Below, piece by piece: positions 50,599 through 55,072 of a DNA stretch of 64,000 nucleotides. The DNA comes from Candidatus Planktophila lacus (lineage in GTDB: Bacteria; Actinomycetota; Actinomycetes; Nanopelagicales; Nanopelagicaceae). The position numbers and the translations under genes are program-made. Each line of letters starts with the position of its first letter. Within the stretch, counting starts at the first letter, position 1. Below the pieces are notes generated by a model. It did not search any database. It saw nothing but the letters and a program-made list of their open reading frames with translations, and had not been told where the DNA came from. The stretch covers positions 1,054,001-1,118,000 of the forward strand of contig NZ_CP016783.1 in the NCBI RefSeq assembly GCF_002288385.1, in the 5' to 3' direction.

Positions 50599-51726
<1,128 letters not shown>

Positions 51727-51758: not shown

Positions 51759-52634
51759 TTAGGCTCCGATCGCCTGCTTAATTTGCTCGCAAGCCAGGGT
51801 TAAATCATCGGCAAAGGCCACATCAGCGCATTGTTCGCGGTCCCAACCAGGTCCACCCAAGATATAGCGCGGTGCTGGGCGAATCGCAGGAGTGTCGCGG
51901 AAGTACATTGGGTCGCCATTTTTTGAAAGCTGTGCCCAAAGGAAAACAGCAGGTGGGGCGCTGCGGGTTACGACATTTGATAGCGCTTCAAGTGGAGTTC
52001 GCGCACCTAAGAAATGACACTCCACTTTTATATCAGAGAGGGCGGCATGTAAGGCATGAAGGGCCAAGGTGTGAAGTTCTTCGCCAACAGATGCGAGTAA
52101 TACAGGGCGAGAATTGATTGGCGTTTTCATCGACTTGGTGCGATCTCGTAAAATTGATGTAACGATCTCAGAAAGTAAGTGCTCTACTTCAATACCAGTG
52201 CCGGTTTCAGCCCAGGCATTTCCAACTATGACAAGAACTGGAACAATGACTTCCTGCCAACTATCAATAACCCCGTATTTATCAATATCTTTTCGCAGTA
52301 TGGATTCAACAAAATTTCGATCGAGCGAATTAGCCGCATTAACAATTGCGGCAACAACATCTTCGCGAACTTCAAAAGTCTTTAAAATCTTTTCTACTTT
52401 TACTTCGCCCTTATGCGCCAGCGCTTGTTCGGCTGCTTCAGCGGGTGCAACGCCTGCTGTGATTAACCGGCGCATCAGAGTTAACTTGGCGAGATCACTG
52501 GGACAATATCTGCGGTGTTCGCCGGCCTCGTGGCTGGAAGGTCCCAGGCCATAACGGCGAGCCCAGGTCCGCAGAGTGGCAGGGGCTACGCCTATTTGGC
52601 GGGCAACGGCTGCAACCGTCAGGAGCTCTTCCAT
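51759..52634 (-). CDS. MerR-type regulator with cobalamin-binding domain (CarH/LitR-like)
   Basis: A 291-residue protein with an N-terminal MerR helix-turn-helix (residues 4-70; VAAVARQIGVAPATLRTWARRYG), a helical cap domain and a B12-binding Rossmann domain from about 175. W141, E151 and H152 form the W-x9-EH motif known from adenosylcobalamin photoreceptors of the CarH group. H188 in GEELHTLA fits the lower axial ligand of the E/DxHxxG motif, though the Gly is Ala. The start at 52634 (MEELLTV) is chosen over 52796 because it begins at the HTH. It diverges from whiD. A light-responsive repressor is inferred. Confidence 0.85.
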   Translation of the reverse strand: MEELLTVAAVARQIGVAPATLRTWARRYGLGPSSHEAGEHRRYCPSDLAKLTLMRRLITAGVAPAEAAEQALAHKGEVKVEKILKTFEVREDVVAAIVNAANSLDRNFVESILRKDIDKYGVIDSWQEVIVPVLVIVGNAWAETGTGIEVEHLLSEIVTSILRDRTKSMKTPINSRPVLLASVGEELHTLALHALHAALSDIKVECHFLGARTPLEALSNVVTRSAPPAVFLWAQLSKNGDPMYFRDTPAIRPAPRYILGGPGWDREQCADVAFADDLTLACEQIKQAIGA

Positions 52635-52723
52635 ACGCCTATGGTGGCGTGAACTGGCCCACCCCACCACTTGAAACACGCTCGCACAGTGATGAAACGA
52701 ACAACTTTTGAACCGATAGGTAC

Positions 52724-52763
52724 TTGAACAACCTATGGCGCGGTTGTATGGTTGGGCTACAAC
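52724..52763 (+). promoter_or_regulatory. whiD promoter with repeated elements
   Basis: TTGAAC (52724-52729), a 17-base spacer and TATGGT (52747-52752) form a good -35/-10 pair with start near 52759. An inverted repeat GTTGTA-N9-TACAAC (52743-52763) covers the -10 and start. A second TTGAAC copy lies at 52708-52713. These are candidate operator sites. Confidence 0.55.
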
Positions 52764-52780: not shown

Positions 52781-53080
52781 ATGGCTGAACTATCACGTCT
52801 ACCGCTTCCTATCGCAGATCATTGGGAATGGCAGTACGAAGGCGCCTGTCGCGAACTTCCTGCTGAGATGTTCTTTCATCCAGATGGGGAACGCGGCCCA
52901 CGTCGTCGCAATCGCGAGAATGCAGCGAAGGCTGTCTGCGCAACTTGCCCAGTTATCCAGGCATGCCGTGCACACGCGCTAGCAGTGCAAGAGCCTTACG
53001 GAATCTGGGGCGGTTTATCTGAAGATGATCGCGCAGTATTGCTTGGCAAAGAAGGGCCAACGATTTACGAAGCGTCATAA
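52781..53080 (+). CDS. whiD: WhiB-family iron-sulfur regulator (WhiB3/WhiD-like)
   Basis: A 99-residue WhiB-like protein. The four cluster cysteines are C23, C53, C56 and C62. The turn motif is GIWGGLS at 75-81, and MFFHPDGERGPRRRNRE is the pattern typical of WhiB3/WhiD rather than WhiB1 or WhiB2. Such proteins bind a 4Fe-4S cluster, sense oxygen or nitric oxide, and contact the main sigma factor. The ATG at 52781 has AAGGAG upstream; a longer reading from 52724 overlaps the promoter. It diverges from the cobalamin-binding regulator. Confidence 0.92.
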   Translation: MAELSRLPLPIADHWEWQYEGACRELPAEMFFHPDGERGPRRRNRENAAKAVCATCPVIQACRAHALAVQEPYGIWGGLSEDDRAVLLGKEGPTIYEAS

Positions 53081-53090
53081 AGATTTAATT

Positions 53091-53128
53091 AAAAACCCCT
53101 CTAACCAAATCGGTTAGCGGGGTTTTTT
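53091..53128. terminator. terminator between whiD and groEL
   Basis: A hairpin whose arms read ACCCC-T-CTAACC and GGTTAG-C-GGGGT (one mismatch, five-base loop), with A-rich and T-rich flanks giving a T run on both strands. It ends whiD and the converging groESL operon. Confidence 0.85.
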
Positions 53129-53138
53129 AATTCCTTAC

Positions 53139-55072
<1,934 letters not shown>

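Follow-up and report, generated by a model that had tools for sequence, protein, structure and literature searches.

The DNA analysed here, referred to as the window, is a stretch of 64 kb from Candidatus Planktophila lacus, the genome of which forms one contig of 1.41 Mb with the window at positions 1054001-1118000. It carries a gene for a predicted MerR-type regulator with a cobalamin-binding domain, here named merB12, and, in divergent orientation and 146 bp apart from it, a gene of the whiD/whiB3 type, the pair being flanked by a guaB-like gene on the merB12 side and by groEL and groES on the whiD side. The features on which the argument draws are listed in window coordinates.

50599..51714, minus strand: guaB-like gene (IMP dehydrogenase), conserved on the merB12 side; named from sequence and setting
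51759..52634, minus strand: merB12, gene for a MerR-cobalamin-domain regulator, product P0001 of 291 aa; from open reading frame, Pfam, structural match and model
51822..52103, minus strand: Rossmann cobalamin-binding domain, residues 178-271; Pfam B12-binding 2.6e-5, under the cut-off, with a fold match to the CarH cobalamin domain
52071..52073, minus strand: H188, expected lower cobalt ligand (TtCarH H177), from alignment to 3whp
52149..52349, minus strand: four-helix cap (B12-binding_2), residues 96-162; Pfam 3.9e-6, over the cut-off, with the helices present in the model
52179..52214, minus strand: W141 ... E151-H152, adenosyl-side pocket motif, residue 142 being Ala; from alignment, invariant in relatives
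52431..52619, minus strand: MerR helix-turn-helix domain, residues 6-68; Pfam MerR_1 4.3e-12
52697..52721, plus strand: second, weaker copy of the element (18 of 25 positions), 27 bp upstream of the main copy; from element match
52724..52748, plus strand: TTGAACAACCTATGGCGCGGTTGTA, the main copy of the 25-bp element and putative operator in the whiD promoter; from conservation, genome scan and loss comparison
52724..52729, plus strand: presumed whiD -35 hexamer, TTGAAC, 17 bp before TATGGT; by reading
52747..52752, plus strand: presumed whiD -10 hexamer, TATGGT; by reading
52781..53080, plus strand: gene of the whiD/whiB3 type, product P0002 of 99 aa; Pfam WhiB 2.2e-24 and structure match
53139..54776, minus strand: groEL, conserved on the whiD side; named from sequence
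54779..55072, minus strand: groES; named from sequence

WhiD and WhiB3 proteins are Fe-S regulators. The assignment of P0002 to this type is based on its Whib domain, on four cysteines read from the sequence (C23, C53, C56 and C62) and on its closest solved structure, which is WhiB3 (7.7e-34, as compared with 6.9e-13 for WhiB1). Between the convergent whiD and groEL genes there is a terminator-like two-way hairpin at 53101-53117.

The merB12 product is CarH-like in sequence and predicted fold. It contains, in the same order, the domain set of the AdoCbl photoreceptor repressors TtCarH and class I LitR, namely a MerR helix-turn-helix, a four-helix cap and a Rossmann-type cobalamin domain, the last of these under the Pfam cut-off. 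Its closest solved relative is TtCarH (1.4e-16 over residues 5-271), compared with which CtMerR from Chloracidobacterium thermophilum (8jbs) is the less similar match (4.9e-9). An AlphaFold model, computed from an input of 37 sequences comprising the window protein and its relatives, has a mean pLDDT of 86.7, and Foldseek returns full-length TtCarH as its top match (2.0e-16, at an identity of 26-27%), while in a second fold comparison the cobalamin domains of CarH, CtMerR and photocobilin are tied at Z of about 19-21. The protein is 91% identical to its counterpart in Candidatus Planktophila lacus NZ_CP016769, and it does not reach the NCBIfam CarH equivalog NF052513 (95.5 bits against a cut-off of 400).

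The likeness to TtCarH extends to the putative cobalamin pocket. The equivalents of TtCarH W131, E141, H142 and H177 are all present, as W141 (52212-52214), E151 (52182-52184), H152 (52179-52181) and H188, the last pairing with H177 in an alignment without gaps. As judged from the alignments, the presence of these four residues is more than chance, because they are invariant in 14/14 and in 37/37 aligned relatives, all close kin from one bacterial family. In a wider alignment of 92 rows, and in TtCarH numbering, W131, E141, H142 and H177 are retained in 13, 13, 13 and 13 of 13 family rows (drawn from the first 30 family loci), in 43, 46, 47 and 46 of 49 distant whiB-linked rows, and in 20, 30, 30 and 30 of 30 rows that are not linked to whiB. 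The initial annotation had described a MerR helix-turn-helix joined to a cap and a B12-binding domain, a W141-x9-E151-H152 motif at 52179-52214, H188 as a possible lower ligand and divergence from a WhiB3/WhiD-type gene, and had proposed a structure comparison with CarH; Pfam, the predicted fold, the alignment and the structure matches agree with it on each of these points, and the proposed comparison yields the CarH-like model described above.

Other features set merB12 apart from TtCarH. In addition to the low identity, residue 142, which follows W141, is Ala at the position where TtCarH has the upper light-state ligand His132, and His is found at that position in none of the 92 homologue rows. 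The published light signature consists of GxxW, EH, GxxH and GxxxP (PMC11796333). Three of these four motifs occur in merB12, ExxH replacing GxxH, and the Gly of this motif is substituted in all 13 family rows (by Glu in 12 and by Gln in one). Lastly, the head-to-tail dimer contact of TtCarH involves R176 and D201 (PMC10442372), and merB12 has Arg at the position of D201. Two acidic residues at 174-176 are found in 54 of 62 rows with Lys or Arg at 201 as against 8 of 31 other rows, counts that ignore kinship. The contact thus looks charge-swapped in the merB12 homologues, and the swapped charges could preserve an AdoCbl-linked dimer contact.

One question then is whether the pocket is in fact used for cobalamin. 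CarA and the class II LitR proteins, which like merB12 are MerR-type regulators acting on promoters (presumed in the case of merB12), work without B12 (PMC9304148, PMC9758184), and merB12 could accordingly bind the whiD promoter without cobalamin and respond to another input or to a partner protein. The sub-threshold Pfam score of the B12-binding domain would be in keeping with such a regulator, as would three whiB-linked homologues, L180, L249 and L237, which have mostly or partly lost the pocket and from which it follows that the pairing with whiB can outlive cobalamin binding. Two of these, L180 (genome G318) and L249 (G695), are second MerR-cobalamin-domain copies, each divergent from a whiB and with most of the CarH pocket residues gone. 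However, merB12 itself retains the pocket residues, which are invariant in 37/37 close relatives, and charge pairing at the dimer contact seems to be maintained, so that we consider a B12-independent mode of action unlikely. In contrast, binding of AdoCbl by the merB12 protein appears to be likely.

The cofactor itself is probably available. The merB12 genome encodes an adenosyltransferase (as do 111/121 family genomes in total) and a class II ribonucleotide reductase. It also has a gene for a second B12-binding protein, a long one that from its size we take to be MetH, and for these reasons AdoCbl should exist in the cell. The adenosyltransferase was considered as evidence for a sensor and dropped, since the gene persists in genomes without merB12 and is, on that account, explained by the ribonucleotide reductase.

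Whether light is the signal is a separate matter. CtMerR, like merB12, combines a MerR domain with a cobalamin domain that lacks His132; it has Arg at position 132, and yet passes from a tetramer in the dark to a monomer in the light (PMC11796333). The missing His132 is therefore compatible with light control. On the other side, the H132A variant of TtCarH stays mostly tetrameric after illumination (PMC10442372). By analogy with these proteins, the chances that light acts as a signal for merB12 seem about even, and light as the signal used in the cell is the least certain part of our proposal. We know of no target of CtMerR. The protein could instead be a sensor of B12 status, which would bind AdoCbl and set whiD expression by the supply of cobalamin, light destroying the ligand only incidentally. 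In a collection of freshwater cultures, Planktophila among them, cobalamin auxotrophy is described as the most common one (PMC12381374). The supply of AdoCbl matters to a cell with a class II ribonucleotide reductase, and the absence of His132 points in the same direction. Against this, the family rows show no variation in the adenosyl-side W, E and H, a feature shared with light-responsive cobalamin domains, and we regard a pure supply sensor as rather doubtful. In the light RNA-seq study of freshwater actinobacteria (PMC8591293), CarH, LitR, WhiB and cobalamin are absent from the main text.

The pairing of the two genes is widely conserved. A divergent whiD lies beside merB12 in 86/86 family genomes with a strong merB12 match (as it does in each of the first 30 family loci), and at these same 86 loci guaB is seen in 81 and groEL in 50 within the sequence stretch examined. 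Of the more distant homologues in the class and phylum, 79 loci were compared, mainly those with the best scores. A divergent whiB is present at 49 of these, many of them with groEL and guaB, and none was detected at 30; nor does whiD adjoin a distant merB12 paralogue in G100. The block groES-groEL-whiD <> merB12-guaB is old. A pairing peculiar to Planktophila lacus is ruled out by these counts, and the earlier suggestion that the arrangement would suit a surface-water bacterium is weakened, because many families of the class have members with the pairing. Planktophila-type loci were also found in records titled Bifidobacterium breve, Streptomyces griseus or Streptomycetaceae (L041, L042, L045, L051, L052, L070, L078, L087, L099, L101, L103 and L112), which are probably mislabelled MAGs.

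Within the class, linkage to whiB may have come first, since unlinked homologues nest among linked ones in a homologue tree of 93 rows. In the large class clade this is true of 24 of the 25 unlinked members; the remaining one, L240, branches earlier, as do five rows that do not belong to the class. The linkage label changes 7 times as against a mean of 25 on shuffling. The tree is a quick one, rooted on a long branch and lacking support at 34 of its 90 inner branches. The neighbours of three unlinked homologues (L166, L168 and L171) were compared with Pfam using ten ORFs around each. At L171 two MerR-cobalamin-domain genes lie beside polyprenyl synthetase, amine-oxidase/CrtI-like and NUDIX genes, and a carotenoid-type gene neighbourhood is the usual setting of LitR. 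The ORFs at L166 and L168, picked mechanically from GC-rich DNA, gave no match to a carotenoid family at 1e-10.

The second line of evidence comes from the DNA between the two genes. The whiD promoter region contains TTGAACAACYTATGRMRCGRTTGTA, and the 25-bp element at 52724-52748 scores 21-25 of 25 in all 86 genomes with merB12 (25 in 46 loci, 24 in 23, 23 in 11, 22 in 5 and 21 in one). In 11 loci, hand-picked for diversity from 30, the information content in 5-base means is 1.3-2.0 bits over the element, falling to 0.2-0.4 further upstream and 0.5-0.7 downstream. In the whole genome the main element is the sole copy at up to 3 mismatches. A second copy, 26-27 bp upstream, exceeds the 95% level of the shuffles at 13 or at 14 of the initial 30 family loci, depending on which of two shuffle draws is used. 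At the distant whiB-linked loci the element beats the best of 100 shuffles in 32/49, by at least 2 in 25-27, and fails to do so in 17/49. The presumed -35 and -10 hexamers, which the element overlaps, match the sigma-70 consensus at 8/12 positions, and a promoter scan made no call there. A plain palindrome was also considered as the operator and set aside, its arms, by eye, fitting the window and weakening in other families. Ahead of the merB12 start an imperfect inverted repeat, TGAACTGG ... CCACTTGA, is found at about 52648-52678; in several relatives it is better formed, as TGAAGTGG ... CCACTTGA.

Natural losses of merB12 allow the element and the gene to be compared. A strong merB12 match is found in 86 of 121 family genomes, whiD without merB12 in 9 and neither gene in 26, some of the 121 assemblies, including some of these 26, being incomplete; one of the underlying searches covered 28 of the 35 genomes without a strong merB12 match and another all 121. 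Under a stricter search cut-off whiD is recovered in 85 of the 86 merB12 genomes, G049 lying below the threshold. In all 8 of the 9 loci that have guaB in view, whiD and guaB are now adjacent and merB12 is not found. The best element score in these nine genomes is 13-18 of 25, and seven of them stay within the 95% shuffle level (L259 offering only 68 bp). The two above it are L260, where the stretch scores 18 and lies inside guaB, and L255, where it scores 17, lies 95 bp before whiD and may be a remnant of the element. By eye, the right end CGATTGTA survives in L254 and the left end is gone, while L256 and L257 keep TTGAAC or TTGAAT and TAGAGT, at 18 and 17 bp, with a changed spacer. In several of the losses the deletion may have removed the whiD promoter along with merB12.

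On a GuaB tree of 86 rows, which left out 8 of the 86 loci with merB12 and one of the 9 without (no GuaB sequence), at least three independent losses of merB12 fall on supported branches, and six on the best tree. The element has gone with merB12 in 3/3 supported losses, for which the sign test gives p 0.25, a number of pairs that cannot reach significance. This co-occurrence of element and gene suggests direct control of whiD by merB12. It is because the element accompanies merB12 and vanishes without it, which is the main evidence, that direct action of the merB12 protein on whiD seems to us very likely. The loss of a repressor fits better than the loss of an activator, because promoter-like hexamers stay at a normal spacing in the absence of merB12, a reading tempered by the modest sigma-70 match, and lack of a scan call, of the hexamers in the window.

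The element could nevertheless serve another factor, either WhiD itself or the product of an unlinked gene, merB12 then being a mere neighbour within the groESL-guaB block. The presence of groEL and guaB on either side of the pair (at 50 and 81 of 86 loci, as above) speaks for such a view, as does the occurrence of whiD without merB12 in nine genomes. Yet these same nine genomes keep whiD without the element, which disfavours autoregulation by WhiD, and in G318 two MerR genes (L163 and L180) each have a divergent whiB, neither groEL nor guaB being detected in a stretch of 16 kb. We therefore hold it to be quite improbable that merB12 is a bystander.

The element also invites comparison with the operators of CarH. 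The Thermus and Bacillus CarH proteins bind tandem 11-bp repeats, nnnnTnnACAn, that overlap the -35 or the -10 box (PMC9304148), and the whiD element likewise overlaps the presumed -35 box. Unlike these operators, the main site has one strict TnnACA repeat, TGAACA, followed 11 bp further on by the looser TGGCGC. Among 41 of the 49 distant windows, those scoring at least 15/25, self-identity peaks at a lag of 11 (0.356, with 0.318 at lag 9 and a shuffle mean of 0.245; one-consensus pick). Strict tandem TnnACA pairs occur at 4/49 distant loci (L222, L224, L226 and L242), compared with 0.14 expected from shuffles, so that a likeness to the CarH operator is suggested by sequence. In the 260 bp ahead of each of the 30 unlinked homologues no tandem pair was found, which disfavours a strict operator of the CarH type as the general case.

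Another difference from TtCarH and class I LitR concerns the presumed target, which is whiD, the carotenoid genes lying elsewhere: a crtB-type gene is about 0.57 Mb from merB12 in the same genome and there is no linkage to carotenoid genes. The initial annotation had proposed a search for carotenoid or rhodopsin genes under the same sites, and the outcome weakens the idea that such genes share them. A scan of the window and of the crtB and rhodopsin stretches (L283 and L284) at up to 7 mismatches in 25 gave no match in either stretch, and crt or rhodopsin genes sharing the whiD site were accordingly rejected for L283 and L284, the genome as a whole having one site at up to 3 mismatches. In the Luna-1 group a whiB is mentioned near a crt cluster (PMC12422013), which may be another form of MerR-whiB pairing.

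Taken together, the overall best explanation, to which we assign a probability of roughly 0.5, is that the merB12 product is a cobalamin regulator of the CarH/LitR kind with direct action on whiD. We infer that the protein binds the element, represses and uses AdoCbl as its ligand, with the divergent whiD promoter as its main, and perhaps only, direct target. In the dark and when B12 is replete, the protein with AdoCbl bound would oligomerise, and the MerR domains of the oligomer would bind the 25-bp element, which spans the -35 box of whiD and the spacer, and so exclude RNA polymerase from the promoter. Green or blue light, by breaking the Co-C bond, or a shortage of AdoCbl, would cause the oligomer to release the DNA, upon which WhiD, an Fe-S redox regulator, would be made.

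In the open-licence literature we found no description of a pairing of the merB12-whiD type, nothing on CarH together with WhiB, and no control of whiB3 or whiD by a cobalamin-dependent MerR protein. The earlier remark that no description of the arrangement was known is thus in agreement with that literature, although such absence is not proof. One candidate report, PMC12672707, was discounted because its available text names LitR and WhiB in separate sections and does not pair them. According to a review on the development of Streptomyces, most actinomycetes have a WhiD orthologue, and the text available makes no mention of a MerR-B12 neighbour (PMC4255298).

A wider conjecture, possible but no better than tentative, is that the locus represents an ancestral light/B12-to-redox switch of the Actinomycetia, in which a CarH-like photoreceptor is dedicated to the whiD/whiB3 promoter and uses a His132-free light chemistry, and from which the carotenoid-linked LitR proteins found in some members of the class split off later. 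To our knowledge, the control of the WhiD/WhiB3 genes themselves is little understood. If the proposed regulation held across the class, a cobalamin regulator would give whiD/whiB3 a concrete input, be it light, B12 or both, with a 25-bp site for tests and natural gene losses as controls, and, in bacteria that abound in fresh water, regulation of the CarH type would reach beyond pigment genes to redox control.
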